A stretch of 64,000 nucleotides of DNA from an uncultured Clostridia bacterium (lineage in GTDB: Bacteria; Bacillota; Clostridia; Oscillospirales; Ruminococcaceae), in assembly GCA_947600065.1 (NCBI GenBank), contig CANQFZ010000003.1, positions 62,001-126,000 of the forward strand, given 5' to 3'. Position 1 is the first letter of the stretch; every line of letters begins with the position of its first letter. The position numbers were made by a program, and so were the translations under genes. Of the stretch, positions 8,708-31,400 are shown one piece after another. Under the pieces are notes generated by a model that made no database searches, had not been told where the DNA came from, and saw nothing but the letters and a program-made list of their open reading frames with translations.

Positions 8708-8725
8708 TTCTAAAAGGAGAAAATT

Positions 8726-12097: not shown

Positions 12098-12113
12098 CAA
12101 AGTTATAAAAAGA

Positions 12114-13647: not shown

Positions 13648-13654
13648 GTTAAAT

Positions 13655-14206
13655 ATGGAAAGAACATTATATTCGCTTTCGGAGCATTTTGACGAGATAG
13701 ATTTAGTATATGAAAAAGCCGAAAAGAATAAAACCACATTTGACATTTATCTTGATATTGAAAAATCGGCTTTAGCAGAAGCAGAAAACAATTGTGATAT
13801 GTTTATTTGTGACGGCGCTACTGTTACAGAGGAAAAATTCAGTTCGTTAAGTGATGAAATTAAATCCTTGATGATATACGAGCTTTCAAAAAGGGGATTA
13901 TATGGCTTTTCTCCATCAATGGAAGCTCCCGAGATAAGGGTCACGCTTACCGAATATTCTCCGATAGTGCTTGGTTGCACAATGTTTTCCATATTGAACA
14001 GCATAGAAAAACTTGACGGAACGTACAATGAGATTTTCCCCAAAGCGTCGCTTGTTATAGAAGCACCGTTCGGTGGAAAAAAGGGACTTGTAAAGCTTGA
14101 AATGATGGTTATGCTGTTATATCCGTGGTTGTCAGTGAGAGAAGAATCAATAAATTTAATTGCCACAACAGCAAAAAAATTAAGTCAGACTTCGATAGGC
14201 AAATAA
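13655..14206 (+). CDS. Hypothetical protein following the CYTH fusion
   Basis: 183 residues, not recognised. The chosen ATG at 13655 follows AAGGTGAG, which overlaps the stop of the HTH-AAA-CYTH gene, so the two are likely translated from one message. The upstream in-frame ATG at 13601 lies inside the previous gene. The protein looks soluble and acidic, has no signal peptide or transmembrane helix, and shows no motif I can assign. Its gene ends just before a convergent terminator. Confidence 0.7.
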   Translation: MERTLYSLSEHFDEIDLVYEKAEKNKTTFDIYLDIEKSALAEAENNCDMFICDGATVTEEKFSSLSDEIKSLMIYELSKRGLYGFSPSMEAPEIRVTLTEYSPIVLGCTMFSILNSIEKLDGTYNEIFPKASLVIEAPFGGKKGLVKLEMMVMLLYPWLSVREESINLIATTAKKLSQTSIGK

Positions 14207-14274
14207 ACCCGTACACTAAAAACGTTAAGCTGGCAAAAGCACATTTGGTAATCTGTTAAGTAGTGAATAAAAAT

Positions 14275-14312
14275 CGGCTGTCGGCATAAATCTAGTTGCC
14301 AACAGCCGTTTT
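14275..14312. terminator. Bidirectional intrinsic terminator
   Basis: CGGCTGTCGGCA (14275-14286) pairs with TGCCAACAGCCG (14297-14308) with one mismatch, followed by TTTT, and preceded by AAAA on the other side. It sits between two convergent genes and can serve both. Confidence 0.8.
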
Positions 14313-14326
14313 CATATTGATTATGT

Positions 14327-15346
14327 TCAAAACTCAATCTTCATATTATTCAAAAATCCCTCGACATTGTTTACCGACTTTTCCGATTCATCTGTCAGAA
14401 GTCCGTCGTCTGTCAGTATCGGCGTATCGAGAACGGATTTAATTGAAACAGCAATGCTTGCGCACGAGGCAATTGCCTTTTTTGAGTCAGTAGAGTACTT
14501 GCTGTAATCGTCGCCCTCTGCGCTGAATATGTCCTCCATTTTATAAATAAGCGGCAGAAAATAAGAATCAAGCCGTGCAAGCAGACTGTAAAACATATAT
14601 GTTCTTCTTCTGATTGTTGCGCATTGCAGCGACGCTGTTTCAAGCTGAGCCGCTATCTGTTCAGCTTCAGCTTTGTTGGTATTTGCTTTTTCAAGCTCTT
14701 TTTTCGCGGCATGACCTGCAACAAGTCCCATTACCATAAGCGCAGGACCTGCGACAAGTCCTCCGAGTACAACCGTGCCTCCCGCCATTCCGAGACCACC
14801 CGCAGCCAAAGAACCTCCCCCGAAAAACGCAAGCGTGGCATTTGTCGCTGCCGCTCCGCTAAGAGAGGCAATTGCTGTTCCCGTTGACGCACAAGCAAGC
14901 GCCTGCGCCGCGCCATATGCGCCGAATGCAGCAAGCGCGCCGCCTGCCGTTCCCGCAACAGCGCCTCCCGCAAGCGATCCCGCAAAACTCACCATTGACT
15001 TAAGTTCAACAAAATCCTGCTTGTCTATATGCAGCTTGTTTAATTCTTCAAGCCCCTCAGAGCCTCTGAAATCTACATTCTTTATCTTTGAAAATGTTTC
15101 AAGAAATTCGGTTATGGTGTTATTAAGGACAAATATCTTTTCCTCTCCGAGCTTTGTCAGAGCCGTTCCGCAGGCAAGCCTTTCGGCATTTATCCGCGCA
15201 GTGGAAGTTTCTACGAGTTCGCTCGCGCTTTTGTTTATCTGCGTTGCGGAGTAATGATCTACTCCTGCTTTCACACCTGTTCCTATACCCAATCCGCCCG
15301 TAGCGGCAGCGGCGGCGATACCTATAAATAAAATCGGCAGCGGCAT
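14327..15346 (-). CDS. Gly/Ala-rich membrane-associated protein
   Basis: 339 residues, function not recognised. It starts with a hydrophobic stretch (MPLPILFIGIAAAAATGG) and has a long Gly/Ala-rich hydrophobic central region (about residues 115-215) that could form several glycine-zipper-like membrane helices. Amphipathic helical segments flank it on both sides. GGAGGG precedes the start and overlaps the end of the upstream TerB-like gene by context, so both belong to one leftward operon. No enzymatic motif is visible. A role at the membrane, together with the TerB-like partner, is inferred from position only. Confidence 0.75.
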   Translation of the reverse strand: MPLPILFIGIAAAAATGGLGIGTGVKAGVDHYSATQINKSASELVETSTARINAERLACGTALTKLGEEKIFVLNNTITEFLETFSKIKNVDFRGSEGLEELNKLHIDKQDFVELKSMVSFAGSLAGGAVAGTAGGALAAFGAYGAAQALACASTGTAIASLSGAAATNATLAFFGGGSLAAGGLGMAGGTVVLGGLVAGPALMVMGLVAGHAAKKELEKANTNKAEAEQIAAQLETASLQCATIRRRTYMFYSLLARLDSYFLPLIYKMEDIFSAEGDDYSKYSTDSKKAIASCASIAVSIKSVLDTPILTDDGLLTDESEKSVNNVEGFLNNMKIEF

Positions 15347-15349
15347 TTT

Positions 15350-15910
15350 TTAACCCTCCTGAAGTGAAATCAGTGTTTTTACACTGTCCATTAACGTATT
15401 TATACGCTCGTTTATTTGGTTAACGTGAGCTTCTATGGTGAGATACGGCTTGTTTGTGCTTTTTATCCAGGTCAGTTCTTTTTCCAGATCCATCAGTGTT
15501 TCGGCGCTGCTGTGCATTTCGTGGAATATTCCCTTGTCTATGCCGAATTGCTCCACAATATAATTTACCAGCTCTTGTTCTTCTACGTTAAAGCATTCGT
15601 CGCTGTAAGCCACCGCAAGCAGATCCCAGATCAGCAAATTTGGCGGGATAAGCGTGTCTTCCTCCGATATTACCGAATTGAATAAAACCTCGCTCACGCC
15701 CTTTTTAAGCGACTCTGCATATTCTTTCATATCATCTGTTGGCGCGAGAACAGCTTTACATTCGCCTATAAGGCTTTCCTTTATCTGCTCAAAATTAGGC
15801 TCAAGTTCATTTCCTATAGCGTCAAACTTTTCTTCTTCGCTTTGATAAATTTCACCGTCCGCTGCTATCAGAAAATAAATAAGCTTCAGCGCGCTCTTTG
15901 TTGAAATAAG
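15350..15910 (-). pseudogene. TerB-like gene lacking its start
   Basis: The frame reads a typical TerB-like helical protein: ALKLIYFLIAADGEIYQSEE near 15860-15895, then DLLAVAYSDECFNVEEQELV around 15620. TerB-like proteins are tellurite-resistance-type acidic helical proteins of unclear chemistry. The in-frame ATG at 15730 falls in the middle of the domain. No ATG, GTG or TTG with a ribosome site exists in frame at the expected N-terminus. Instead the frame runs into the DNA of a truncated M48 peptidase gene. A deletion that removed the start is the simplest explanation. A shortened 126-residue product from 15730 remains possible. Confidence 0.65.
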
Positions 15911-16229
15911 AGAAAAATCTTGATGTTATGCAGATCATAGGGTAGGTAGTGCCCATAGTAAAAGCGTTAAGCTCTTTAGATTTTACATAGTAGAGTTCGG
16001 GTAGGGGAATACCGAGATTTTCACAAATAGGCGGCAAGAGCCTGTAGATTTCGGGAAACTGATTTTCGCTAATTCTTATTGCCGTAGACATCAACTCTAT
16101 CTTTTCGGCTTTTTCGTTCGTGTTCGCCAGATAAAGTTCTTTAAGCCGCACAAGTTTAGGAAAAGCGTTCAAGGCATTGAAAGCTTTTCTGTCAAGCTCG
16201 TGCATATACAGTTCTGAGCTATAAGGCAT
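15852..16229 (-). pseudogene. M48-type peptidase N-terminal fragment
   Basis: Starts at MPYSSELYMHELD (ATG at 16229, ribosome site AAGGAAAG) and follows the M48 metallopeptidase pattern through NLGIPLPELYYV, KSKELNAFTMGTTYPMICITS. In this family the zinc motif HExxH should follow within about 25 residues. Here the frame instead passes into the TerB-like gene in the wrong frame and stops at 15852, so all catalytic residues are missing. The join lies near 15905-15915. The fragment is probably inactive. Confidence 0.7.
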
Positions 16230-16233
16230 AACT

Positions 16234-16458
16234 TTACTTTCCTTTCTTGTTTTTATTTTCGGGAACAAACTCCATTATATCGTCCAACTTGCAGTCAAGC
16301 GACGTGCAAAGTTTTTCGAGAGTTTTAACGCGGACGTCCTCGTTTCGCCCGAGCTTTGCCATAGCGTTTGTAGTAATCCCCGCAAGACGGGTAAGTTCTG
16401 TCTTGTTTATGTCTTTATCTATCAGCATTTTCCAAAGCTTATTATAGCTGACAGCCAT
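16234..16458 (-). CDS. Small XRE-family transcriptional regulator
   Basis: 74 residues consisting almost entirely of a Cro/CI-type helix-turn-helix (KTELTRLAGITTNAMAKLGR and VKTLEKLCTSLDCKLDDIMEF), a class typical of one-domain regulators in Firmicutes. It is the first gene of the leftward operon with the M48 fragment, TerB-like and Gly/Ala-rich genes and ends 5 bp before the M48 start. A consensus promoter lies 55 bp upstream. Autoregulation is likely for this class but no operator can be proven here. Confidence 0.85.
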   Translation of the reverse strand: MAVSYNKLWKMLIDKDINKTELTRLAGITTNAMAKLGRNEDVRVKTLEKLCTSLDCKLDDIMEFVPENKNKKGK

Positions 16459-16542: not shown

Positions 16543-16697
16543 GATATTTTTGAGATTTTCAAGAATATTTTCATAATAAAAATACCCGCTTTATAATAAT
16601 ACAAATTGCAAAGCGGGAAAATATATATTACATAATAATCACTTTAATGTCAAATTTTTATTTATTTAATGTCTTATAATTATGACATATTAAAAAT
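16543..16697. other. AT-rich gap with two inverted repeats
   Basis: No gene. CCCGCTTT (16585-16592) pairs with AAAGCGGG (16610-16617), and an imperfect palindrome with ATGTC/GACAT arms spans 16669-16688. Either could be an operator or a back-up terminator; neither has a clear T-run. Confidence 0.5.
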
Positions 16698-16726
16698 AAA
16701 GGCTGAACCCTTACGGCTCAGCCTTT
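16698..16726 (-). terminator. Terminator of the DrmAB-Hsp70 operon
   Basis: AAAGGCTGA (16698-16706) pairs with TCAGCCTTT (16718-16726); additional CC/GG pairing extends the stem. Read leftwards the hairpin is followed by TTTATTTTTAATA. It is 40 bp after the stop of the last operon gene. Confidence 0.85.
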
Positions 16727-16766
16727 ATACAATATTCTCACAAGCGGCGGGATAATTCTAGTATTC

Positions 16767-18569
16767 TTACATCGTGTCACTTAAAAAACCCAAATCTGAA
16801 TCTTCCGGCGTTCCTACTACCGATGCTCTGTCAAGAAAGCAGTTAAACCGTTCACATGAAGTTTCGGGCAATAGAGTACAGTCATGACAGGCGGCGTAAT
16901 TTAGGCTTTTATAACCTTGTTTCATAGAAGAAATGCACAATGGATCGCCGCTGCACCAACTCGCGCGTTCAAGCATACTGTCCATAATTTTTTCAAACAC
17001 ATCTTTATTATCTGCAATGCTTATAAGTCCTCCAAGACTGCTGTCACTATCGGATGATGACACATAGATAAGCACACCGCACATTTTAACTTCATTATTG
17101 TCACCTATCTCGCTGTAGATCTTTTCTCTTATAGAAGCAGTGCTGTAACCGCAGATGTTTGATATTTCACGAATAAATAAATGTGCAAAAGTATGAAGCA
17201 TAACATAGGTTTCAGAAAATGTATTAAAAATAAAGTTACTGTCCTCCATAGCTTTCTTCATAGTTTTATAACGTGAAGAATGAGTGTTTTTCCATTTTGT
17301 AACTTTATTTTTATTAAACCTGATAAAAATACCTTCTCCTGTCAGTTCTACCGCCGGAAGCCATGACTTTTTATATTGAGAAATAGGAACGCTGTTTGCT
17401 TCGTTACGAATAATTCTGGTAAATCCCGTAAATGCTTGAGTGACAGTAAGCCTGTCAACTACTGCGATCTGCTCGAAATAAGGCTTATATTTTTCGGGAA
17501 TATCAGCTGAATATGACGAGAAATTATCTTCATTTTTATTCTCGGCTTTTGACAGAACCGCATATTCATCTTCATAAACCGATAATTCCGAACAATTTGG
17601 TTTTTCACCCTCTGCCGATTTTACAATATTCCACGACCGCAAAATCTCGTCATCGTCAATATTGTTGTCGTGAAGAATTTGCCTTATTGCATACACTATT
17701 TTATTTTCGTCAACTACTTTTAACAAGCCGTAATTTTTTTGGATAAAGCTCACTATCTTTTTACTCCAGGGCGGAATAAGCAATGCGGATTTTGTAATGG
17801 GAAAATATACACCCGAAGCCGAACGCAGTCTTGCCCGCATTTTGTCATGACAGCCGTATTGTGTTCCGGAATTAGGATTTTTAAAGTGTGGGTATTTACA
17901 CGTACATGGAAAATCGGAAAGAGCATTATCCGAAAATGCTTGAATCATACTTCTTGTAGCTTTACATTCCGTACATTCAAGCCTTAGGCTGTCAATATCC
18001 GTTCGATTATAAATATTTACCATTTTAATTCTTGGTGATTTAATTCCCGACGGGCAAGGTTTTCCGCTATGTACCCACCAATCATAAGGAAAATCGTCCA
18101 TATGTCCCCTTGCGCATACAACGATAAAACGTGATGCGTTCAGTGTGTTTTTGCAATTCGGACATCTGTGGCGGTCTTTTGCATCTAACTCCTTGTAATC
18201 GTAGATATAACCACATCTTGAGCAATGCAATTTTTCGGGGAATATATATGACGGAATGTCTTTGCTTTTTGAAAAGCTGTTAGTACTTTGTGCAGTCCTC
18301 GGCATTAAAAAGTATTCTGCTCCTGTTATGACTGAAAGATTTTCATTGAATATCTTTCGGTTTTCAACTTTTCCGAAATCATTCGGATCATAGTCCCAGT
18401 CATCGGTAGAAGCAATAACTACAGTGTCATCTTTAAAATCAACAATCGAACCTACGCCAAAGGTCGTTATTATCTGAGTTTTTCTTATATTGCCTACACT
18501 TATTTTTTCATTTGAAAAGATGGACATATCGTCGCCATTGTTTTTTCTTCTGAATGTAGGTTTTGACAT
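16767..18569 (-). CDS. drmB: DrmB-like DUF1998 protein
   Basis: 600 residues. The N-terminus (VGNIRKTQIITTFGVGSIVD) and the Cys-rich part (CSRCGYIYDYKELD, CPNCKNTL, CARGHMDDFPYDWWVH) are typical of DISARM DrmB. The C-terminal DUF1998 domain (about 470-590) is clear: FAHLFIREISNICGYSTASI, SLGGLISIADN and the Cys cluster CHDCTLLPETSCERFNCFLD. DrmB binds the DrmA helicase in DISARM and helps DNA loading. It follows the DrmA-like gene by 11 bp with ribosome site AGAGGG and is the last gene of the operon. The gene symbol is by homology to DISARM; the surrounding gene set is not that of the classical classes. Confidence 0.88.
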   Translation of the reverse strand: MSKPTFRRKNNGDDMSIFSNEKISVGNIRKTQIITTFGVGSIVDFKDDTVVIASTDDWDYDPNDFGKVENRKIFNENLSVITGAEYFLMPRTAQSTNSFSKSKDIPSYIFPEKLHCSRCGYIYDYKELDAKDRHRCPNCKNTLNASRFIVVCARGHMDDFPYDWWVHSGKPCPSGIKSPRIKMVNIYNRTDIDSLRLECTECKATRSMIQAFSDNALSDFPCTCKYPHFKNPNSGTQYGCHDKMRARLRSASGVYFPITKSALLIPPWSKKIVSFIQKNYGLLKVVDENKIVYAIRQILHDNNIDDDEILRSWNIVKSAEGEKPNCSELSVYEDEYAVLSKAENKNEDNFSSYSADIPEKYKPYFEQIAVVDRLTVTQAFTGFTRIIRNEANSVPISQYKKSWLPAVELTGEGIFIRFNKNKVTKWKNTHSSRYKTMKKAMEDSNFIFNTFSETYVMLHTFAHLFIREISNICGYSTASIREKIYSEIGDNNEVKMCGVLIYVSSSDSDSSLGGLISIADNKDVFEKIMDSMLERASWCSGDPLCISSMKQGYKSLNYAACHDCTLLPETSCERFNCFLDRASVVGTPEDSDLGFLSDTM

Positions 18570-18580
18570 TATTTTGCCCT

Positions 18581-21500
18581 CTATCTCTTAGTAAAATAAA
18601 CATTTGCTGTCGGCTCAACATTTCTTACAGAATTCAGTATAGTCGGTATATCCGAGCCGCTTTGATTATCAGCACTGCGGAAAAGAGCAATATCCTCATT
18701 ATGATAATCTGTGAACACAAGTTTATTAGGAAGACTATTTGCAAGCTTTTCCCAACAATCAAGGTAATAATCAAGCCATTCCTCTGCGTATTCTGTGATG
18801 CGAGGCTCTACCTCATCAACGCGCTTCAGTATATTTTGCTTTATATTTTCAACATCTTTATCGTTCCTTAAAAAAAAGCAGGCGTTTGCGTTAGGGTTGT
18901 ATTTCGACACAGTGTGCCTTATAATTGCCATCATAGCGCAGTGTAAAGCCTTTTCAACAGCTCTGGGAGAATATGAAGTAACGCTTGTCGCTTCTACATA
19001 CTTGTAAAACGTGCTGTGATAATAAATAAACTGTTCATAATATGATTTGTCCCGAGATCTCATACCGTTATAAAGTGAAATAACCAGCCCGGGATTTGTT
19101 CTCCCTACACGGCTTGTAGCTTGTATATATTCCGAGTTTGACTTTGGCTGTCCGTAAACACACATAACACCGAGCCTGTCAATGTCTATACCTACCGACA
19201 GCATATTTGACGCCATTATATAATCAAAACAGTCTTTGTTTGTATATCTGTGGGAAAGTCTTTCAAGAACTCCTTTAATATCTTTAGCCGAATTTCGGCT
19301 TGTAAGTTCATCGTTTTTGAAATATGACGGTATATCGGCGTTTGCACAGTCGATTTTCATATTTACGCTTTCAGCCTCTTTTTTGAACTTATATGCTGCA
19401 AGATACTTTATTTCAGACGTGATACGGTCCAATATTATTATCGAATTAGAGCCAAGTTCTTTAAGAGAATTAAAATACCCTACATATGTATAAAACTGGT
19501 CGACAACATCAGTCGGTTTTCCTTGAAGCCTGTAAAGATGTTTCATAAAAGTAAGCAAAGCAAAGATCTTAATAAGCATTTCCGATGTTCCAAAGCCGAT
19601 GGAACAAACGCCGAGATACGTTCTTGCAGGTCGTTTTGTTTCATCAGCCTCTACAGCAAAAAACGAATCCGTGTGCGATAATCCGTTCGGAGGAAATTGT
19701 ATCATCTTTCTGTTGTAAAGAATTTTAATTTGGTTGTCGGCATTTTTTACTGTTGCAGTTGACGCAATGATCTTAGGCGCTTTGCCATAGTGTTTGCATA
19801 TGTTTTCAATTGCAATTTCATATATTCCCGTGATTGAGCCGAGCGGTCCCGAGATAAGATGAAGCTCGTCTTGAATGATAAGCTCGGGCGGTTTGCACCC
19901 GTTAGCACCGAGTAAATTTCCTGCTTTTTCTTCCCACGTTATTCTTGCAAATTTATCGACCGTACTAAGAACAAAAGTAGGCGCCACACGGTAAATATCG
20001 TCATCTACCACATAAATCGGCAAATGCTTGTGAAACTCACATTCGGGATTGTTGCTGCAGGATATATTCATTTTTCCGCTGATTATCTCATAACCACCCA
20101 CATTTATTTCTGCACCGCACCAAGGGCATTTTACAATTTGCATGGGGTTTGCTTCGTATAAAACAGCCGTCGGATCTTCACAAATTTTTTTCAGCGCTTC
20201 TGTTGCGTTTTCTATGTGGTTAGGTGTCATTCCCGAGCCTATCCAAAGTCCGATAGATATTTCACTCCCGGGAATACCGTACTTTTTCCTCATGTGTTCG
20301 CAAGCGCAGATAAGGGCGGTCGCTCTTTCAAATTGCTGAAGTGTAAGCAGTCTGAGGGTATATTTCATAATAACCGTAACGCCGTTTATATTGTTGCTTT
20401 CTCCATTAAGCCTTCTGAAAAATATAACAAATGCCGCAACTCCGAGATAAGCTTCGGTTTTGCCTCCGCCCGTTGGGAACCACAAAAGGTCTACGTCATT
20501 ATGAAATTCCGAGTTGTCGTCAACTATATCGGGTATTATCTGAAGTATATACGCCATTTGAAAAGGATACCAGCTTACTGTATCAGGCTGGCAGCGCTTA
20601 GTTTTAACTCGCTGTAAAAGCATTGCCTCATTCATATATAGAAAAGCTTTCCAAGCCGTATCGTTATTTTCAAGTATCTTAACTCCCATATTCAGACGTG
20701 AAATACAGCGCTCAATATTTCCAAACGTATCTGAAGCCGTATCGGGATATTTTTCAATAAGCTCGGCATTGTTGCTCTTTATATTATCATACCAATTCTG
20801 ATATTGTATAACAAAGGAATTAAGCCTTTCACAGGCTGCTTTTCTGTCTGCTATATTCCAATAATTCATATAAAGATAGTCCGAGTTATCGAGCATTCTC
20901 GGCATCATCTGAAGCATTTTGTACTGCGGTATAAATTCGCTTCTGACTTCTGTAACAATGCCATGATTTTCAGCAAATACTGCCGAACATCCGTGGCCGT
21001 ATGCATAATTGTTTACAGTGTCATAAAGCATATCATTCTTTTCATCTTCAAATGATTTGCGGACATTTCTTCTGTAAACGGGCATAAAACCTTTGTCACT
21101 TTTAATCGACAGCTCGCATTGAAACAACGCACCCGTGTTGCTTCCCGGGAAATCATTGCCGGCTTCGTGCATATTAAGAACAGACACCGTTACAAGCTCG
21201 CTGTTGTCATTGTATATTTTTCTGACATGAAGATATATTTTTACATCGCTGCTTTCCGTGCATGACACTACCATATTGCAAACTCTTGCAGGAACAATAA
21301 CATCTGACTCGATTTTTTTAGCTTCCCGAGAATAATAATGTCGCTTCGTTTCATTGTCGGCATCGGTAATTATCTTTTCTGAATGGTGATAAACAGCATA
21401 TGAAAATTCAATATTCAGCTTGTCATTTGAATAAACTGAAAAAGATACCCCGAATGAAGATGGTTTATAAATATTTATATTCTTAGGCTCTTCACTGTCG

Positions 21501-21718
21501 CTAAATTCGTCCTCAAACATTTCGTCTTCTGAGCGGTCTATACCGGATACTTCTGAATTTTTGCTTTTTGGCTGCGCCCAAAGAATACCGAGCGAATAAC
21601 GACTGAGTGGATCTTCGATTTCTAATACTTCGTTTTTTTCGATAGGTCCTATGAAATCCGTCCTAAGATGTTCTGCAATTTCGTCTATTGCATTATAAAA
21701 CTCCGAATAACTTGACAT
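18581..21718 (-). CDS. drmA: DrmA-like SF2 helicase
   Basis: 1045 residues from MSSYSEFYNAID (start at 21718, 4 bp after the upstream stop; the in-frame ATG at 21751 lies inside the previous gene). Helicase motifs are Walker A PTGGGKTEAYLG near residue 413, DELH (IIQDELHLISGPLG) near 615, SNMLSVGIDIDRLGVM and QATSRVGRTNPGLVI in the C-terminal RecA fold. A CPWCG...CSNNPEC zinc element is inserted between. The pattern and length fit DrmA, the DNA translocase of DISARM. It is paired with the DrmB-like gene directly downstream, as in DISARM. Confidence 0.88.
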   Translation of the reverse strand: MSSYSEFYNAIDEIAEHLRTDFIGPIEKNEVLEIEDPLSRYSLGILWAQPKSKNSEVSGIDRSEDEMFEDEFSDSEEPKNINIYKPSSFGVSFSVYSNDKLNIEFSYAVYHHSEKIITDADNETKRHYYSREAKKIESDVIVPARVCNMVVSCTESSDVKIYLHVRKIYNDNSELVTVSVLNMHEAGNDFPGSNTGALFQCELSIKSDKGFMPVYRRNVRKSFEDEKNDMLYDTVNNYAYGHGCSAVFAENHGIVTEVRSEFIPQYKMLQMMPRMLDNSDYLYMNYWNIADRKAACERLNSFVIQYQNWYDNIKSNNAELIEKYPDTASDTFGNIERCISRLNMGVKILENNDTAWKAFLYMNEAMLLQRVKTKRCQPDTVSWYPFQMAYILQIIPDIVDDNSEFHNDVDLLWFPTGGGKTEAYLGVAAFVIFFRRLNGESNNINGVTVIMKYTLRLLTLQQFERATALICACEHMRKKYGIPGSEISIGLWIGSGMTPNHIENATEALKKICEDPTAVLYEANPMQIVKCPWCGAEINVGGYEIISGKMNISCSNNPECEFHKHLPIYVVDDDIYRVAPTFVLSTVDKFARITWEEKAGNLLGANGCKPPELIIQDELHLISGPLGSITGIYEIAIENICKHYGKAPKIIASTATVKNADNQIKILYNRKMIQFPPNGLSHTDSFFAVEADETKRPARTYLGVCSIGFGTSEMLIKIFALLTFMKHLYRLQGKPTDVVDQFYTYVGYFNSLKELGSNSIIILDRITSEIKYLAAYKFKKEAESVNMKIDCANADIPSYFKNDELTSRNSAKDIKGVLERLSHRYTNKDCFDYIMASNMLSVGIDIDRLGVMCVYGQPKSNSEYIQATSRVGRTNPGLVISLYNGMRSRDKSYYEQFIYYHSTFYKYVEATSVTSYSPRAVEKALHCAMMAIIRHTVSKYNPNANACFFLRNDKDVENIKQNILKRVDEVEPRITEYAEEWLDYYLDCWEKLANSLPNKLVFTDYHNEDIALFRSADNQSGSDIPTILNSVRNVEPTANVYFTKR

Positions 21719-21722
21719 TTTA

Positions 21723-24035
21723 TTACTTCTTTTCAAATACAAGATGTGCAAGTCCCGTTACTTGAATTCCAAAACATATTCTTGATTTTTGAAATTCTAT
21801 CGGAACATTATCATTAAACTTTTTTAATATCTCTGTTGTTATTTCGCTGACATAAATATTTTCCAAGCCTATTGGCAGTCTGGAATTATAATTGGTCATG
21901 CTTATTGCCTGACTAAGTTCGTTAATTATTGTTTTTGAAAACAAACCGATACAGCGGTCATTGTGGTATATTTCAAAATAACCTGTGGATGGGGAACGTT
22001 TTGCAGAAAGCTTATCGTATAACTTTACGTTGCCCGCAATATATTCCTGCAAATCGAGCGCGTCGTCAAATCCGCCCGATACAAATGAACTGCTGTCAAT
22101 GTCGCCTGTCAATCCCACAGCAATGCTTTTGCAGTATCGGTTGTTATAATGTCGGAGAATTTCAAACGCTCGTTGAGAATGTATACTGCCGAAATTTTTA
22201 ATATTTTTCTTCATTATATAAAACTGCTTTTTTGGACGCGTAAGAGCAACATATCTTACCCTTGCTTCTTCGGCGCTAACAGGAGAATGTTTAATATACG
22301 ATGGGATAAGAATTACATTTTCAAACTCTCTTCCCTTTGCTTTATGTATAGTAGAAACCGTAAGCAGAGGTGCTTTTCCGTAAAACTCATTCGGAATATT
22401 GTCGGGCTTTGAAAGCGCCTTTATCAAATCAAAAACGTTTAATATAACAGCGTTATCCTGTGCTCGCGTCATTTCGCAAAGCTTATTCCATAGGAAGTCG
22501 GGGTCAACCTTAAAATCACTTCTGAACATGAACCTCTCTTTAAAATCCTCTTTACTAATCGTTTCATTGCAATAATCCCAGAACACATCAGCTATCCACC
22601 TTGGCAGAGGATTGGCGTTATTTACGCCTCGGTTAAGTGTGTGCTCAATGCCTTTTTTGCACAGTAATCCGCTTATGTATTCCGCTTCGCCGTTGCTTCT
22701 GCATAAAATTGCCGTCGATACAGCCGGAGTTTGAGAAAGATTTTTGATATACTGTTCAATCTTTGACGGATTTAAATATTTATTTCCAATTTCGCTTGCA
22801 TATTTATTTTGTTCTGAATTGTTTTCGTTAAGTAATACTTTGCGCATTTTTTCGGCTTCGTCAGCGAGCTTTGGAGTTTGCCTATTGTTGACAGTAATTT
22901 CATATCGAAGTATATCATTGGGGAACAGTTCCTCGGCGCGTTTATAAAACTCAACCGAGTCAATTTTAGCTTCTTTATCAGCCGAATAATCGTAAATAGA
23001 TTGACATCTGTCGCCCGCAAGCAAATACCCGCAATTAACGTTTTCCAGTATTTTCAATACCATCTCTGCTCGTTCGTTTACAAGATCTTGAAGTTCATCA
23101 ACCACAAAATAGCTTATTCCCTCAAAATCCTCCGCCGATGCATATTTGTTGAACAGCTTTATGCGCTCGTCGTAGCCGTAGCTATCAAAATTCTCGGTAA
23201 TAACGCCTTGCTCTTTCATGTCTATTAAAAAATATGTCGCATAAGAATCGAAAGTCAAAACACAAATATTTTTTGCGGAAGGTTTAATTTCTCCGTCTAC
23301 AACAGCCTCGTTTATCCTGCTTAAAACTAATTCTTTAGCAGAACGCGTATAGCAAAGAACATAGATTTCTTCGGCAGGGCAAAGGTCGTTTTTCAGAATA
23401 TAGATCAGACGCCTTATAATAGTATACGTTTTTCCCGTTCCGGGACCCGAATTCAGTATAATGTGGGAACCAAACGGCGCTGATATAATACAGTCCGGCT
23501 CGGTTATTTCGGTATACAGTCTGCTTGTCTGTTGTAATTCAACAGCAGACAGTTCTTTAGGCGCGGAATATTCTTTCGGGGTAAATTCTTCCTCCGCTTC
23601 ATTTAATTCTTTTATGGACACAACAGTATTATTTTCTATGCTAATGCCGTGTTTTTTTAAAAATTCCTGCAGGCTGTTATCTTCTTCTGCGTCTTCTGCG
23701 TCAACAGTCTCGCGCTCTATCTTTTTCGGCGTACAGCCATAAACACCTGGACAGTCGGTATACTCGCACCTACATTCCCAGAAGAGTTCTCCGTCTTTCA
23801 AAACCGCGCCGTATGACATTTCGCCGCTGTGAGCATTAAAGCATCTTTGATTTTCCGATATAATTTTTTCTTGAACCTGCGTAAGCGGTATTGCTTCAAA
23901 CCCTATATAACGGTTTTTTATATCTTTAAGCAGTTTAGCACCCGTTATCTTTCCGACATATTTTCTGTCTTTTCTGATGTCGCTGTTACTTCTGACATAT
24001 ATGTTTGAAGCAATATTTATATTTGACTTAACCAT
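21723..24035 (-). CDS. UvrD/Rep-family SF1 helicase with Cys-rich N-terminus
   Basis: 770 residues. The N-terminal 190 residues include a Cys cluster (CRCEYTDCPGVYGC) likely to bind zinc. SF1 motifs are complete: GPGTGKT near residue 195, VDELQD near 312, LLAGDRCQSIYDY, STIHKAKGREFENVIL and RVRYVALTRPKKQFYI. It is therefore probably an active 3'-5' DNA helicase or translocase; no nuclease motif is seen at its C-terminus. It starts 3 bases after the Hsp70-like stop. Its place between an Hsp70 and DrmAB suggests it belongs to the same complex or pathway. UvrD-like helicases occur in several defence systems (for example Gabija GajB). Confidence 0.88.
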   Translation of the reverse strand: MVKSNINIASNIYVRSNSDIRKDRKYVGKITGAKLLKDIKNRYIGFEAIPLTQVQEKIISENQRCFNAHSGEMSYGAVLKDGELFWECRCEYTDCPGVYGCTPKKIERETVDAEDAEEDNSLQEFLKKHGISIENNTVVSIKELNEAEEEFTPKEYSAPKELSAVELQQTSRLYTEITEPDCIISAPFGSHIILNSGPGTGKTYTIIRRLIYILKNDLCPAEEIYVLCYTRSAKELVLSRINEAVVDGEIKPSAKNICVLTFDSYATYFLIDMKEQGVITENFDSYGYDERIKLFNKYASAEDFEGISYFVVDELQDLVNERAEMVLKILENVNCGYLLAGDRCQSIYDYSADKEAKIDSVEFYKRAEELFPNDILRYEITVNNRQTPKLADEAEKMRKVLLNENNSEQNKYASEIGNKYLNPSKIEQYIKNLSQTPAVSTAILCRSNGEAEYISGLLCKKGIEHTLNRGVNNANPLPRWIADVFWDYCNETISKEDFKERFMFRSDFKVDPDFLWNKLCEMTRAQDNAVILNVFDLIKALSKPDNIPNEFYGKAPLLTVSTIHKAKGREFENVILIPSYIKHSPVSAEEARVRYVALTRPKKQFYIMKKNIKNFGSIHSQRAFEILRHYNNRYCKSIAVGLTGDIDSSSFVSGGFDDALDLQEYIAGNVKLYDKLSAKRSPSTGYFEIYHNDRCIGLFSKTIINELSQAISMTNYNSRLPIGLENIYVSEITTEILKKFNDNVPIEFQKSRICFGIQVTGLAHLVFEKK

Positions 24036-24037
24036 AA

Positions 24038-25474
24038 TTACAAATCCTCAATATCTTTTAAGTCATAATAAAACCTAAGCTTATTTATATCCTGTACTAC
24101 CTTATATTCGTCACCAAATTTTTTGTTTTTAATTTCGGCTTTGGCTATCTGATTTTTACCTATCTCAATCGACAGTTCAAACATTTCGTCAATGTATCCT
24201 TTTGCCTTAACAGTCATGACGGCATATCTGTTTCTTCCCGTTGATTCGGTAAAAATAAAATGCGCGTCACGTGCATCTGTTGTCAAAGAGAAAGAAACAG
24301 GCTCGGATCTGTCGCCTACCTTGTTTATATCTTTTTTAAGTACAGGATATGTCTCGCCGTCGCTGAGTAAAATGCAGATGTCGTCCGCAAGCCTGTATTC
24401 GCAGTCAATTGCTGATGTTATCGCTGCTCCTTTTGCTACCATCCATTGATACCTGCCGCCCTCGTCTTCAAATATTATTTTATCTTCATCAAACAGTGAA
24501 AGTATTATATCTGCAAACGGTCTTAATCCGCTCGACCCGCCCGCAAGAATAACTTTGTCGATGTTTTGGGGATTGACGTTTGCTTTTTCCATTATCTTTT
24601 TTATAGCGGGTATAACGTTGTTTTGTATAAGAGGAATGACAATTTCCGAAAAAGTGTCATAATCAATATCGACAGGTCGTGTTTTTGTACCAAAAGTCAT
24701 AGTATAATCATCGGCGGTGGTAAAGTCAATTTTCATTCTCTCGACTTCGTTCATAAGCTTATCTTTATTTGTTGCTTCAAGATCCTCAAAAGATGTATTC
24801 GGATATATTTTCGGAAGCAGCCTTTGCGCAAGTTCTTTATCTATATCATCGCCGCCGAATTTTACACCATAAACAGCGTCCTCAAAAACTTTGTTGCATT
24901 TGAGATTAAGTATGCTTAAATCAAGCGTGCCGCCGCCAAAGTCTATGACCATAACCTTTGAGCATGCTTTTATATCCTTGACTTTCGAAATATATGCGGA
25001 GGAAGATTCGCTTATAAAGCCTTTAACTTTTATGCCTATCTTTTCGGCGGCTTCAAGCAGATCTGTTCTTGCTTTTGCGGAAAAGTCAACGGGGATAGAG
25101 AAAACAGCCTCGGAAAAATCGGATTGATTCACTGTTTGTTTTACATATTTCAGAAATAAAGCCGTAAGTTCTTTTCCGTTATATTTTTCACCATTTACAT
25201 CTATTACTTTGTCTGTTCCGAGCAGTGATTTAAATGATGTGACAATTTCATAGTTGTCAGCATATACGTTTATATTCTCTTTAACCTCGCGCCCAAATTT
25301 AATATCACTATTATTAGTTCTTGATATAGCAATGCAGGAGCTGAACGGCATAAGATCTTTCCCGTCAGTTCCAAATCCTGTTCCTTTAAAACCCAAGCCC
25401 TGTTCGTATTTATACAAATAGACAGAGGTGTTTGTTGTGCCAAAATCAATGCCGAAATATGCTCCGCTTTTCAT
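24038..25474 (-). CDS. Hsp70-like (DnaK-type) ATPase with short C-terminus
   Basis: 478 residues. The actin-like ATPase domain has phosphate-1 DFGTTNTS (9-16), phosphate-2 IDFGGGTLDLS (around 172), and the adenosine motif AGGSSGLRPFADI (around 315). DnaK proteins have about 610-640 residues; here only about 110 follow the ATPase domain, enough for a beta-type substrate domain but without the helical lid. A dedicated, operon-borne Hsp70 of this size is not the housekeeping DnaK. It overlaps the upstream gene by the ATGA tetranucleotide, indicating translational coupling. It may assemble, switch or sense state of the helicase complex; this is inference. Confidence 0.9.
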   Translation of the reverse strand: MKSGAYFGIDFGTTNTSVYLYKYEQGLGFKGTGFGTDGKDLMPFSSCIAISRTNNSDIKFGREVKENINVYADNYEIVTSFKSLLGTDKVIDVNGEKYNGKELTALFLKYVKQTVNQSDFSEAVFSIPVDFSAKARTDLLEAAEKIGIKVKGFISESSSAYISKVKDIKACSKVMVIDFGGGTLDLSILNLKCNKVFEDAVYGVKFGGDDIDKELAQRLLPKIYPNTSFEDLEATNKDKLMNEVERMKIDFTTADDYTMTFGTKTRPVDIDYDTFSEIVIPLIQNNVIPAIKKIMEKANVNPQNIDKVILAGGSSGLRPFADIILSLFDEDKIIFEDEGGRYQWMVAKGAAITSAIDCEYRLADDICILLSDGETYPVLKKDINKVGDRSEPVSFSLTTDARDAHFIFTESTGRNRYAVMTVKAKGYIDEMFELSIEIGKNQIAKAEIKNKKFGDEYKVVQDINKLRFYYDLKDIEDL

Positions 25475-26703
25475 TTGTTATTCCCCTTATAGTCAATTCC
25501 GTTTCTATCAAGCGCTCTGAAAACTTTCTTTATTATCGCCTGTAACGACTCATAATTGATTTCGCTGACATCTGAATTTTCGTATTCAAGCCAATCTTCG
25601 TACAAGAGAGAAAATGCATTTTTCAAATTAAAACGAATTTTTTCAGCCTCAAGAGATGCTTCGCGGCTGTTTATTGCATAAGCGTCTTTCAATTTGTTAT
25701 AAAGCTCTGCGTTATTACTTTCAAGAGCTTCTATCTGCTTTTTTAGATCGTCTTTTTCTGTTTTAACAGTTGCCAAGGATTGATTTGCAGCCTGAAGTTT
25801 TTCTTCCTGCTCGGCTATGATTGCTTTTAATGATACATTCTCTGCGCCTACTAAACGACACTTGTTTATCTCGCCTTGTATCGGTACAATTAAACTTTCG
25901 ACAGCCGCAATAACAGCAGCCCTATCATTTGCTATATCTCCCTTTAAACCGATATACAGCTCTTTTAAAGTCATATCATTCAAGGAGGTTTTATCAGCTT
26001 TTTTATCTGAAACGGAAGCCGGCTTTTCGTCTATAGAAGTTTGGCTGTTCGCGGATTTTTCAGCTGTTTCACTTGCGGTAAAACCTGCAGTTTCAAAGCC
26101 GTATTTTTTTGCCCATTCAGCAATCAATGTCCCGCATTTTGCTTTAGTTATATCCGGGAAAATTTTATTTATGGCATTCCATATATCATTCAAGCCGTTA
26201 TTGTCTACATCTGAATAGTCCGGCATAAAGATCCTGCCTGATGTTTCGTTTATAAGCGAATAGAACATTTTTTTAAATTTTTCCGATTTTACAGCAAACC
26301 CTGCAATAAACGAAACAAGATATGGAAGCTGAGTAGATGTCAATGATTCGTCTTTATAATTATTCATGATTGAAGAAACCGCAAAGGCATACTTCTGGAC
26401 AAAATATTGTGATTTGCTCTTGTTGTTATCGGTTTTTATAAATTCTTTAATAACTTTGTCAAGTAAATCTACTGAAGCGATTTTTGCTTTAGTGATGTTA
26501 TCAAAATAGACTTTAACTACATCTGCCGAAAATCTTGAAAGCTGAACGGCAACTTCGCTCTTTAAATTTTCTTCGCTTATTGTCATCTCAACAAGAAGTC
26601 TTGCAACGTCCCGTGTTTTTTCGTTGTTCAACTGGGACTTATTTTGTTTGTATTCATTATATAACGCGTTCAGCTTTTCCTGTACTTCTTTAAAATTATT
26701 CAT
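25471..26703 (-). CDS. Coiled-coil protein with GrpE-like C-terminus
   Basis: 410 residues from MNNFKEVQEKLN (ATG at 26703 with AAGGAGG 6 bases upstream; the ATG at 26724 precedes this site). The first 190 residues are helical, not recognised. A linker rich in Ser/Ala/Glu follows, then a long coiled coil (about 275-345). The tail (SLLYEDWLEYENSD, SLQAIIKKVFRALDRNGIDY) resembles the end of GrpE helices, where a coiled coil leads to a bundle ending in LxxxGV. GrpE is the nucleotide exchange factor of Hsp70. Since the next gene is an Hsp70, a co-chaperone role is a reasonable inference, not proven. Confidence 0.75.
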   Translation of the reverse strand: MNNFKEVQEKLNALYNEYKQNKSQLNNEKTRDVARLLVEMTISEENLKSEVAVQLSRFSADVVKVYFDNITKAKIASVDLLDKVIKEFIKTDNNKSKSQYFVQKYAFAVSSIMNNYKDESLTSTQLPYLVSFIAGFAVKSEKFKKMFYSLINETSGRIFMPDYSDVDNNGLNDIWNAINKIFPDITKAKCGTLIAEWAKKYGFETAGFTASETAEKSANSQTSIDEKPASVSDKKADKTSLNDMTLKELYIGLKGDIANDRAAVIAAVESLIVPIQGEINKCRLVGAENVSLKAIIAEQEEKLQAANQSLATVKTEKDDLKKQIEALESNNAELYNKLKDAYAINSREASLEAEKIRFNLKNAFSLLYEDWLEYENSDVSEINYESLQAIIKKVFRALDRNGIDYKGNNK

Positions 26704-26720
26704 AAAAATCCTCCTTATAA

Positions 26721-28091
26721 TCAAACAATTGTTATCATATCATCGGGCATTTCGCAATACCCCTTTATCATTTCTACAATGGACTTCAGATCGGATAGGG
26801 AAGTGGCGTTTAATACTTGCAATCCGTTTGACAGCTTATTACAATCTTCCACAGGTACTGCCGTTCTATAAAAAACGTCCTTTTGACGTAATTTAAAAGC
26901 TAGTCCCGCAATACGAGCCATTTTAAACGGTTTGTAATTTATTGAAAACTCGCACACATTTTTTAATGCGTCCGAATAATCGTAGGCTGTTATTACTTTC
27001 CCATTGATTTTAAGAGTTATGCCGTTTGAAATATTATCGTTTAATGCTTTTGTTTCAGCCATTGTTTCAGTCGGCATTTCTGCTTTGCTTTCAATTCCCG
27101 TTTCCAAACCAGTTGGTTCATCATTTGAATTGTCCTCTTCATTTGGTTCTTCTGATATATCTGTGAAATTATTTCTGGTAATATACTCGATTATCATTTG
27201 GCTGCTGTCAATAGAACAAAGTTCAAGCAAACGCTTTACATGCTTAATTAAATCGGGAGCATTTAGGTTTCCTTCAGCAAAAAAATCAGATGTTATTCTT
27301 ACTCCTCTGCGAAGCCTATGAGCAAGGGTTTTATTTGCAAAGTCTATCCGATGTCCATATAGCGATTTGCCGATCAAGTTTTTTAAAATGTCTACATAGT
27401 TATTGTCGTTGTAAAGCAAACCAAGAAATTTAGCATATAAATCAGTCCAGTTTGCGACAGTATACTTCCTATTGTAAAATGAGAATGAAAGCGGTTTTGA
27501 TTTTATATAAATATAGGGCGTATCAAAATTTATTGTCTTTACATCATCATATTTCGTTAAGTGCTGCGAAGGACTGTGAGATGTTTTTGATTTGTGTTCA
27601 GACTGTGCTGTTATATTGACAAAGCTATTGACAGCATCATACAAAGATCTTAAAAGATCAGAATATTGACGAAACTTCTTTCTTCTCTTCTGAACTCTGC
27701 TGTACTCTTCTCCGTCATCAATGTCAAATAATTCATTGTATTCTCTTTGGATATTTATTAGCGCAGAATTTACTCTTTTGTTCAAATCATCAAGATGCCT
27801 ATATAATTCATCATTTGTCAAAAGAGTGTATTCTTCGGAATTTGGTTCAATGTTATGACTTTCAATTATCTCGCCGCAGCAAGTGTGTATTTTTTGTATT
27901 AAACGAACCTTGTTCAATACCGATAATAATTCTTGTACATCAACCGTTTCGGAGGAAAGAAATTTAAGATACTCTTTTTTTCCTTTTTTATAGTCATTTA
28001 CTATATTCTGAATAAAATCAAGAATACCATTTTCAACTTCTGCCTCGTTACTTTCATTTAATTCGGAGATGATTTTAAAATCGTCGTTCAC
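26721..28091 (-). CDS. First gene of the DrmAB-Hsp70 operon, unknown
   Basis: 456 residues from GTG at 28091, which has AAAGG 9 bases upstream. The frame is also open from TTG at 28130, but the predicted transcription start is at about 28128, so that codon would not be translated normally. The N-terminal 170 residues are helical and charged. The middle part (LSFSFYNRKYTVANWTDLYA, then ELCSIDSSQMIIEY) resembles a small wedge domain seen at the ends of restriction-type proteins, but I cannot name the family. An acidic, low-complexity linker separates a second small domain. It may be the target-recognition or adaptor subunit; this is a guess from position. Confidence 0.72.
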   Translation of the reverse strand: MNDDFKIISELNESNEAEVENGILDFIQNIVNDYKKGKKEYLKFLSSETVDVQELLSVLNKVRLIQKIHTCCGEIIESHNIEPNSEEYTLLTNDELYRHLDDLNKRVNSALINIQREYNELFDIDDGEEYSRVQKRRKKFRQYSDLLRSLYDAVNSFVNITAQSEHKSKTSHSPSQHLTKYDDVKTINFDTPYIYIKSKPLSFSFYNRKYTVANWTDLYAKFLGLLYNDNNYVDILKNLIGKSLYGHRIDFANKTLAHRLRRGVRITSDFFAEGNLNAPDLIKHVKRLLELCSIDSSQMIIEYITRNNFTDISEEPNEEDNSNDEPTGLETGIESKAEMPTETMAETKALNDNISNGITLKINGKVITAYDYSDALKNVCEFSINYKPFKMARIAGLAFKLRQKDVFYRTAVPVEDCNKLSNGLQVLNATSLSDLKSIVEMIKGYCEMPDDMITIV

Positions 28092-28135
28092 ATAATCAAA
28101 CCTTTCAGAATTATATTTGTTAAATTGCAATTATC

Positions 28136-28164
28136 ATTATAACATATTTTTACTAAAATAGCAA
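28136..28164 (-). promoter_or_regulatory. Promoter of the DrmAB-Hsp70 operon
   Basis: On the minus strand TTGCTA (28164-28159), 17 bp, then TATAAT (28141-28136). Transcription would begin at about 28128, placing the GTG start at 28091 behind a leader of about 37 bases with AAAGG. Confidence 0.82.
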
Positions 28165-28284: not shown

Positions 28285-28313
28285 TTGACAAAGCTCCCAT
28301 GATTTGTTATAAT
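28285..28313 (+). promoter_or_regulatory. Consensus promoter, upstream of the pair
   Basis: TTGACA (28285-28290), 17 bp, TATAAT (28308-28313): a perfect consensus directing rightward transcription from about 28320. Confidence 0.85.
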
Positions 28314-28319
28314 ATCAAC

Positions 28320-28386
28320 AAGTAAGATGGTAGTGCTTAGCACAATGCTCAAAACGTTCCGCGTGCTTATTCGGAACTTTTCTTTT
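28320..28386 (+). ncRNA. Candidate short RNA between promoter and terminator
   Basis: From the consensus promoter at 28285-28313 the transcript would meet GTTCCG (28356-28361) pairing with CGGAAC (28372-28377), followed by TTTTCTTTTTT. That predicts an RNA of roughly 65 nt. It contains no credible ORF. It could be a free small RNA or an attenuating leader of the exonuclease-RecQ gene. Length and existence are predicted only. Confidence 0.45.
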
Positions 28387-28389
28387 TTA

Positions 28390-28418
28390 TTGACATCAAG
28401 GCGTAAAGTTGTTATAAC
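28390..28418 (+). promoter_or_regulatory. Promoter of the exonuclease-RecQ operon
   Basis: TTGACA (28390-28395), 17 bp, TATAAC (28413-28418), starting transcription about 10 bases before the ATG at 28435. Together with the hairpin just upstream this argues that the in-frame ATG at 28327 is not the start. Confidence 0.75.
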
Positions 28419-28434
28419 ATCGGGCGGTGAATAT

Positions 28435-31400
28435 ATGAAGCATATCTTCTTTATTGATACCGAAGTCAGCGAAACCGATCATAAAGCGTGTGATTTCGGT
28501 GCAGTAAATGAAAATGACAATAAACTGCATACGAGTTCGGGTCGGGAATTTCACGACTTTATTGCAGATGCAGAATATCTCTGCGGTCATAATATCATTG
28601 ATCATGACGCGCAATATATCAAAATAACCGAAAACGCAAATTTTATCGACACTTTATATCTGTCACCGCTGATGTTCCCTAATAAACCATACCACAGACT
28701 TTTAAAAGATGATAAGCTCCGGACGGACGAACTTAATAATCCGTTAAATGATGCAATAAAGACAAAAGAACTTTTCTATGATGAAGTCAATGCTTTTTTA
28801 GAGCTTAATGTTAAAACTAAACTCATCTACTATATGCTCTTGAAAAACAGCAATTACTTTTCGGGATTTTTTGATTATCTGGGATTTTTTGCAGACAGCG
28901 ATGTCAAAGCGGCAATTAGGCTTCAATTTGCAGGGAAAATATGTGAAAATGCGCCGCTCGATGATGTCATTAACAGCTCGCCGATAGAGCTTGCATACTG
29001 CCTTGCGTTGATTTCTGCAACTGAAGAACATTCTCTGATACCGAAGTGGGTGCAGGTCAATTATCCGAATACAGAAGTGGTTATGCGAGAGCTTCGAGGC
29101 ACTTCCTGCCATAAATGCGAATATTGCAAATCAATGCTTGAACCTGTCGCCTATCTTGGCAAATATTTCGGTTATAACAGCTTTCGCAGATACAACGGCG
29201 AGCCTTTACAGGAAAATGCAGTCAAAGCGGCTGTGGAACATAATTCTCTGCTTGCTATATTCCCAACCGGCGGCGGTAAATCATTGACTTTTCAGATACC
29301 TGCGCTTATGGCGGGGGAAACAGAACGTGCGCTGACTGTCGTTATTTCTCCGTTACAGTCGCTTATGAAAGACCAGGTCGATAATCTTGAAAAGCGCGGT
29401 ATTGCAGAAGCTGTCACTATAAACGGTCTTCTCAGTCCTATTGAGAGAGCAGAGGCAATAGAGCGCGTTGAATCGGGCATTGCTTCCATTCTCTATATTT
29501 CTCCCGAATTGCTTCGATCTGTTACTATTGAGCGGCTTTTATTGTCGCGTCATATTGACCGTTTCGTCATTGATGAAGCGCATTGTTTTTCGGCGTGGGG
29601 TCAGGATTTTCGTGTGGACTATCTTTATATAGGCGATTTTATCCGTGAATTGCAGGAAAAGAAAGGGTGCAGGATACCTGTTTCTTGCTTTACTGCAACC
29701 GCAAAGCAAAAGGTCATCAGCGATATTAAAGATTATTTTAAGGACAAACTCGGGCTTGAGCTTCTGTTGTTTGCAACATCTGCAACGCGCACTAATCTTC
29801 GATATGAAGTGCTTTATAAAGAAACCGACGACGAAAAATATGAAGCTCTCCGTTGCCTTATCGAGGAGAAAAACTGCCCTACTATCGTCTATGTTTCAAG
29901 GACAAAAAGGACGAGTGAACTTGCGGATAAACTTTGCTGCGACGGTTTTAAAGCAAGACCTTTCAATGGTAAAATGGACAGCAGCGAGAAACAGGAAAAT
30001 CAAGAGGCTTTTATAAATGATGAGGTTCAGATAATAGTTGCAACATCGGCTTTCGGTATGGGCGTTGATAAATCCAACGTTAAATTGGTCGTGCATTACG
30101 ATATTTCGGATTCGCTTGAAAACTATGTTCAAGAGGCAGGCCGCGCGGGACGTGATGAGAATTTACAGGCGGAATGTTATGTGCTGTTCAATGACAATGA
30201 TCTGGACAAACATTTCATCCTTCTTAATCAGAGCAAACTCAGTATCAGTGAGATACAGCAGGTCTGGAAAGCTATAAAAGACTTTACTCACACACGTTCG
30301 GATGTGTGCTGCTCGGCGCTTGAAATAGCCAGACAGGCAGGCTGGGACGACAGCGTTTCCGAAATCGAAACAAGGGTAAAAACAGCGCTGCAGGCTCTTG
30401 AAAATGCAGGGTATATAAAGCGCGGGAAGAATGTTCCCCGAGTATATGCAGACGGTATACTTGCAAAGAGTACAATTGAGGCAAACAAGAAAATCGATGT
30501 TTCTACCAAATTTAATGACGATAAGGAAAGAACCGCGGCTAAGCGTATCATAAGCAAACTTATCTCAAAAAGGAGTATTTCAAAAGCGGGAAACGACGAT
30601 GCGGAATCAAGAGTAGACTACCTTGCGGATATACTCGGCATTGAAAAATCGGACATTATACGTTACATTCAGATAATGCGCGAGGACGGTTTGCTTGCAG
30701 ACAGCAAAGACTTGACTGCATATATACAGAAAACTGATACCGTCAATAAGTCTATGATCGTTCTTCACCGCTTTCAAACCCTTGAAACCTTTCTGCTCGG
30801 GGATATTGAGAATATAGAAGCTGACAAGTTATGCTTGAACTATAAGGAACTGAATGAAGCGGCTCTTGAACGAGGAATAAGAAACAGTTCGGTAAGATCC
30901 ATAAAGACATTGTTTTATTATTGGACGATACGTAACTATATTAAAAAAGAGCAGTATCAGACTACGGATAAAGTTATCATTATACCGAAAATGACTATTG
31001 AGCAAATTAAGAAAAATCGTCGGAACAGTTATGCTGTTTCAGAGTTTATTATAAACTATCTGTTTGAGATAAGCGGCGGAGATATAAATTGTAAAGATGA
31101 AGCGCTCGTGGAATTTTCGATACTGGAATTGATAAACAAATACCGTGAACAATTCTTGACGGATATAAACGAACAGGATATAGAAGAAGCACTGTTGTTT
31201 CTCTCCAAGATCGGGGCATTGAAGCTGGAAGGCGGCTTTCTTGTGCTTTACAGCGGTATGCGTATAAAGCGGCTGATACTTGACAATAAAAGGCGCTATA
31301 AGGTGGAGGATTACAAACAGCTTAATGAATTTTATCAGCAGAAAATACAGCAGATACATATCGTAGGCGAATTTGCGAATATGATGGTACGCGACTATAA

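Follow-up and report, generated by a model that had tools for sequence, protein, structure and literature searches.

Background

DISARM systems of class 1 and class 2 contain DrmA, DrmB and DrmC, together with DrmMI or DrmMII and with DrmD or DrmE. DrmC is often missing and is dispensable. The DrmAB complex of DISARM binds ssDNA and 5'-overhang DNA (PMC9142583). Bell et al. 2025 (PMC12458937) described ARMADA, BRIGADE, TALON and many uncharacterised DISARM-like classes, and Hsp70 is absent from the main text of that paper.

We analysed a window of 64,000 nucleotides from a gut bacterium. It contains an operon that links drmA and drmB to an Hsp70 module. No name or description for this layout was found in PADLOC or in the openly licensed PMC literature, which is a partial base and gives weak evidence. 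We rate the arrangement as a previously undescribed DISARM-related variant, with the caution that the partial literature calls for.

Operon layout

The operon occupies positions 16767-28130 of the minus strand. It contains six ORFs with spacings of -29 to +11 bp. A motif scan found a promoter-like site with an extended -10 (TTGCTA-17-TATAAT; 28136..28164, minus strand), and a hairpin scan found an intrinsic terminator with a 14-pair stem (16696..16728, minus strand). The first-pass annotation had described six leftward genes with one promoter and one terminator, and all six ORFs were recovered, flanked by both signals. Across the region there were 54 promoter matches vs 40 expected from shuffles and 13 terminator matches vs 9, which is a slight excess only. 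The operon arrangement is not due to chance, because the same order was seen in 15 other distinct loci.

Gene 1 (26721..28130, minus strand) encodes a variable protein. Its GTG codon at 28091 is preceded by a GAAAGG Shine-Dalgarno sequence, and the TTG at 28130 sits 6 bp from the -10 box. The gene probably starts at the GTG and not at the TTG. The predicted structure was poor (pLDDT 65), and we do not trust the fold matches obtained with it. The protein had no Pfam match, and no relatives were found in viral contigs, plasmids or phages. A stretch at about residues 200-337 has counterparts in two proteins: one of 790 aa (L010:8900-11272), whose IDGQQR motif is GmrSD-like by eye, and one of 1272 aa from another genome (L011:521-4339). 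From its sequence, this stretch is possibly a shared defence-associated domain. In a related locus (L012:15339-18323), the gene 1 protein has a HIRAN domain at its N terminus and contains insertions that the window copy lacks.

Gene 2 (25471..26724, minus strand; likely ATG at 26703) encodes a 417-aa protein with helical repeats and a long coiled coil. The predicted structure contained a helical-repeat domain and a 130-residue helix (pLDDT 84), and the protein has a conserved C-terminal motif. The fold matches were generic helical repeats of HEAT/ARM-like type. This protein had been called a GrpE-like coiled coil, an identity that we rejected. It had no informative Pfam match, and its profile comparison with two GrpE sequences only was no better than shuffles (hhalign 12.6 vs a shuffled mean of 10.6, with 14 of 100 shuffles scoring as well).

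Gene 3 (24038..25474, minus strand) encodes a 478-aa Hsp70. It contains a nucleotide-binding domain and a short C-terminal region of about 100 residues, without a lid. The Hsp70-like call was borne out by Pfam (HSP70, 4.4e-26), by matches to DnaK structures and by intact ATPase residues. Residues D10, E156, D178-T183 and D212 were invariant in the eight aligned sequences (8/8), and the phosphate and adenosine motifs were present in the profile match. The protein and the host DnaK were 28% identical across 455 aligned positions. Genes 1 and 2 and the Hsp70 gene had no informative match in PADLOC 2.0.0. The operon does not encode a J-domain protein or a recognisable nuclease.

The fourth gene (21723..24035, minus strand) encodes a 770-aa UvrD-family helicase. 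The UvrD-like call was upheld by Pfam (UvrD, 1.2e-17) and by a GajB-like match in PADLOC (2.3e-22). DrmA (18581..21751, minus strand; likely ATG at 21718) is an SF2 helicase of 1056 aa that was matched by PADLOC at 3e-221. DrmB (16767..18569, minus strand) is a DUF1998/MZB protein of 600 aa with a PADLOC match at 8.8e-82. Its MZB domain scored over the Pfam cut-off. By phmmer, the sole PDB match of each was its DISARM counterpart in 7s9v (7s9v_A at 3.1e-143 for DrmA; 7s9v_B at 2.8e-72 for DrmB). Both earlier calls, DrmA-like and DrmB-like, agree with these matches.

DrmA keeps the helicase motor motifs and a C-terminal NSxRxV motif. The valine of this motif aligns with Serratia Val1296, a proposed methylation sensor. 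The residue was mapped through L016, in which residue 1097 equals 1296 provided that the final residues align ungapped. At the trigger-loop position, DrmA appears from its sequence to have an acidic loop, shorter than the one in Serratia DrmA.

Three other features of the window were noted. A 138-aa ORF past the terminator (15852-16268, minus strand) looks by eye like a metallopeptidase-type gene fragment and had no Pfam match. A phage-type integrase (51429-52508, minus strand) lies about 23 kb from the operon. A divergent gene (28327-33204), part of a feature at 28285-33204 of the plus strand, encodes a 1625-aa RecQ-like/UvrD-like double helicase, with a perfect TTGACA-17-TATAAT promoter ahead of it. 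It was rejected as an operon member and is missing beside the other Hsp70-type loci.

Recurrence and co-inheritance

DrmA was searched in genomes of the order and the phylum, and a DrmA alignment was run against contigs of 84,980 species. The best 80 loci of the genome scan were kept. At least about 110 drmA loci were gathered in all. The order coiled coil-hsp70-uvrD-drmA-drmB was found in at least 16 distinct loci, window included, of which three (L014, L022 and L048) lie on contigs that stop at drmA with drmB out of view. These loci were from Bacillota, Synergistota and Melainabacteria (window, L008, L012, L013, L014, L021, L022, L024, L045, L047-L049 and L053-L056). L046 and L051 duplicate L008 and L021, respectively, and were not counted separately. 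The coiled-coil gene of L024 was assigned by position, and uvrD is split in L013. According to their record titles, the contig-scan loci included one from Synergistaceae (L048) and one from Gastranaerophilales (L053), besides loci of Anaerosalibacter (L054) and of Eubacterium coprostanoligenes (L055). In a same-phylum sample, this Hsp70 family was present in 9 of 398 genomes.

The conserved core consists of five genes; relatives may carry another gene in place of gene 1 or lack it. Gene 1 falls into the families window/L008/L012/L045, L013/L047, L021/L022/L054 and L024, and no gene 1 was recognised in L014, L049, L053 or L055. The six-gene unit that was first proposed therefore stands as a recurrent core of five, with a variable and sometimes absent sixth gene.

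The neighbourhoods of the loci also contain other genes. AbiE is a neighbour in L014, and a LlaJI restriction enzyme is a neighbour in L056. In Anaerosalibacter, a reverse-transcriptase (RVT_1) protein is encoded immediately downstream of drmB (L054:15014-17125). In L021, L053, L055 and L056, drmB is followed by a gene for a NERD-UvrD protein, which is possibly a supply of nuclease.

The pairwise distance correlations were 0.973 for Hsp70-DrmA, 0.986 for Hsp70-DrmB, 0.972 for DrmA-DrmB and 0.886 for coiled coil-DrmA, with permutations that treat related loci as exchangeable. In a host DnaK control of eight genomes, the correlation was 0.991 for Hsp70-DrmA vs 0.879 for DnaK-DrmA, with a partial correlation of 0.96. 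The coupling of Hsp70 to DrmA is as tight as that of DrmA to DrmB, and the DnaK control does not explain it. Recurrent co-occurrence, which the first-pass annotation took as the sign of a system, was found: DrmAB and the Hsp70 module are co-inherited in at least 16 distinct loci. Across these loci, the Hsp70 and coiled-coil genes are conserved with drmAB and are not scattered neighbours.

Methyltransferases and DrmC

The six proteins of the window operon contained no methyltransferase (PADLOC and Pfam) and no DrmD or DrmE (PADLOC). DrmC had no PADLOC match in the operon, as the earlier report of no PLD-type DrmC had stated, and none was found across the 16 Hsp70-type loci. For METHYLTRANSFERASES, neither the window genome (98.6% complete assembly) nor the same-genus relative G033 gave a C5 methyltransferase match. 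Other contigs of the window genome contained one HsdM-type match and a few N6/N4 methyltransferase matches.

A C5 methyltransferase was present in or beside the operon in the canonical DISARM-type loci L016, L017, L018 and L033, and also in L027 and L028. Among the Hsp70-type loci, L022 has a neighbour with a DrmMII match (5e-156); it lies upstream of gene 1 at a distance of 988 bp, and an ORF on the opposite strand separates the two. L021 has a DrmMII-type gene 465 bp upstream, adjacent to the operon and outside it. A regex search near the loci for other methyltransferases and PLD nucleases found only separate neighbour genes, in L012 and L041. The absence of a methyltransferase holds for the operon but does not characterise the class as a whole. 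The phrase "without methyltransferase" was therefore correct for the operon; as a defining trait it goes too far, since a DrmMII-type gene adjoins the L021 and L022 operons.

Exchange of the upstream module

A 78-row DrmA tree, built by a quick method with SH-aLRT, no bootstrap and a long-branch warning that included L024, placed 15 Hsp70-type rows, L057 and L052 in one group with support of 100. A careful 29-row tree recovered the same group at 99/99. The DrmA of L024 was outside the main group, and 15 of the 16 Hsp70-type DrmAs were inside it. L052 starts at a contig edge.

L057 (Acetatifactor sp.; 3628-14884) encodes ZorA, ZorB and ZorC directly upstream of UvrD, DrmA and DrmB, with gaps of 2-12 bp. 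ZorA was matched at 5.7e-25, ZorB is of MotB/OmpA type, and the ZorC match was weak. The three genes occupy the slot held elsewhere by the coiled-coil and Hsp70 genes. This swap is one locus, nested inside the Hsp70-type DrmA group, and from its sequence it is an apparent Zorya/DISARM hybrid.

The sacsin-type loci are a second large class without Hsp70. In a group of actinobacterial and chloroflexotal DrmAs (SACS; support 100), the upstream slot is occupied by a protein of roughly 1390-1860 aa. Two of these proteins are, by profile, a sacsin/Hsp90-like ATPase fused to a helicase, and the others were assigned by size and position. Such a sacsin-type ATPase-helicase, TmtA-like in PADLOC, is encoded before UvrD-DrmA-DrmB in L058:2075-14932, in L068:3322-15045 and in comparable actinobacterial loci of the range L060-L100.

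The Hsp70 side also occurs alone. Five of the nine phylum genomes bearing this Hsp70 family had no DrmA match. The contig of L134 is cut inside uvrD, and L136 has no drmAB downstream. L135 (G610; 485-13814) encodes coiled coil-Hsp70-UvrD, then a PLD nuclease, a 1019-aa unknown protein, a second UvrD, a PAPS reductase and DUF4007, with no DrmAB. L137 and L138 were left out as Hsp70-type loci; their Hsp70 is more distant, and they have no coiled coil or DrmAB. Given the module swaps and the DrmAB-less loci, the Hsp70 side acts as a movable module, and UvrD is found with either side.

Proposed function

We give even chances to the reading that this is a phage-defence-type, DISARM-related operon in which a UvrD-DrmAB effector is gated by Hsp70, the helical/coiled-coil protein and gene 1. 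The family and the context suggest the antiphage role. In its favour are the match to the DISARM DrmAB structure, the recurrence and co-inheritance of the genes, the intact motor and ATPase motifs and the exchange of the upstream module. The best reading of Hsp70 is that of an exchangeable trigger for the UvrD-DrmAB effector, because ZorABC and sacsin-type proteins fill its slot. ZorAB has been modelled as sensing infection and recruiting DNA-damaging effectors (PMC11890865). Phage sensing by bNACHT25 requires host DnaJ, a precedent for chaperone-based sensing (PMC12169576). The first-pass annotation had proposed Hsp70 as a switch in a DISARM-related system. The DISARM-related core holds, and the ZorABC swap in L057, a single locus with a weak ZorC, supports the switch; we infer the gating itself, and with it the client that is sensed.

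In a resting cell, the Hsp70 module would restrain the effector. Infection would expose a client, which may be a phage protein or nucleoprotein or a load of unfolded protein. This client would be read through the variable gene 1 protein and the Hsp70 ATPase cycle. UvrD and DrmAB would then be licensed onto free single-stranded or 5'-overhang DNA ends and would translocate. The operon has no recognisable nuclease, and therefore the effector would have to block DNA, unwind it or depend on nucleases from elsewhere. Phage DNA would be blocked or made accessible to nucleases, which may come from the host here and from the neighbouring NERD-UvrD in some relatives. Infection, and perhaps the acidic DrmA loop, would control loading, and this control, not methylation, would protect self DNA. 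Self and non-self would thus be told apart by a route other than methylation, as first proposed, with the proposed methylation-sensing valine still conserved. Weighing against the gating reading are that valine, the DrmMII-type genes beside the operons of two relatives, the lack of a J-domain protein and of a recognisable nuclease in the window operon, the place of L024 outside the main DrmA group and a ZorABC swap seen in one locus with a weak ZorC.

A rather unlikely alternative, although the leading one, is that Hsp70 and the coiled coil are dedicated assembly or folding factors for UvrD-DrmAB, and that detection falls to DrmAB itself, acting on DNA ends as it does in DISARM. This role fits a chaperone family such as Hsp70, whose ATPase motifs are intact here and which is co-inherited with DrmAB. 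However, most drmAB operons have no chaperone, close DISARM relatives included, and the Hsp70 module occurs without DrmAB in L135. ZorABC can also fill the Hsp70 slot, and in Zorya it serves to sense and recruit, not to fold. More doubtful is that the operon is DISARM in all but layout, with methyltransferases elsewhere marking self and the DrmA valine sensing methylation. Against this, neither the window genome nor G033 has a C5 methyltransferase match, and linkage to a methyltransferase is exceptional among Hsp70-type loci, whereas canonical DISARM has one in the operon. The conserved valine, the DrmMII-type genes adjoining the L021 and L022 operons and the N6/N4 methyltransferases elsewhere in the window genome are in its favour.

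Two further readings have little probability. Hsp70 may be a nucleic-acid-binding subunit, a role proposed for CnuD of CoCoNuT, steering the helicases to phage RNA or DNA. CoCoNuT operons combine an Hsp70-like domain with coiled-coil and HEAT-like parts (PMC11090510), much as genes 2 and 3 do, but its Hsp70 ATPase motifs are degenerate and those here are intact, and we consider this improbable. We give hardly any credence to a DNA-repair or stress operon unconnected with phages. Helicases and chaperones do serve repair too, but this DrmAB groups with DISARM DrmAB, its Hsp70 family is sparse (the 9 of 398 genomes), and relatives have AbiE, LlaJI and DrmMII-type genes as neighbours.

Beyond the reading of Hsp70 as a gate, we tentatively suggest, with somewhat less than even confidence, that UvrD-DrmA-DrmB is a plug-in effector with exchangeable sensors: Hsp70 here, the Zorya motor in L057 and the sacsin/Hsp90-like ATPase in actinobacteria. 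Phages would then be sensed by the Hsp70 form via the protein-folding state, and self would be spared without methylation. If this is true, the Hsp70 form is a bacterial immune system that reads protein folding. That a gut bacterium shares the DrmAB-Hsp70 set with remote relatives, spread over at least three phyla, suggests a chaperone-type sensor instead of methylation reading. How DISARM-like helicases separate phage from host DNA becomes testable with the same DrmAB core, an operon free of methyltransferase and an ATPase chaperone. The exchange of Hsp70 and the Zorya motor in one slot suggests that sensors and effectors mix more freely than current catalogues assume.

Comparison with known systems

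The operon resembles CoCoNuT (an McrBC subclass with CnuD) in its Hsp70-like protein, its HEAT-like and coiled-coil parts and its restriction-type operon. It differs in having no McrB, McrC or HEPN and in its intact ATPase motifs. Its UvrD is best matched by GajB profiles, as in Gabija, but there is no GajA OLD-family nuclease. ARMADA, Druantia and TALON share the YprA-family helicase core, and ARMADA II shares the GajB-like UvrD. Those systems have a helicase-DUF1998 fusion and nuclease domains, whereas the window operon has none of these. ARMADA also has the PglX methyltransferase and the BrxHII helicase (PMC12458937), and neither is in the window operon. Zorya type I (ZorABCD) resembles it in the proposed logic of an upstream sensor that acts on a DNA-processing effector, and in L057 ZorABC sits in the same slot. 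The window operon has no ZorA/ZorB membrane motor, and its effector is UvrD-DrmAB and not ZorD. DISARM resembles it in having DrmA and DrmB as separate adjacent genes, which are homologous over most of their length, with the motor motifs, the NSxRxV motif and a zinc-binding DrmB. In place of DrmC, DrmD, DrmE and a methyltransferase, the window operon has Hsp70, a helical/coiled-coil protein, UvrD and a variable protein.
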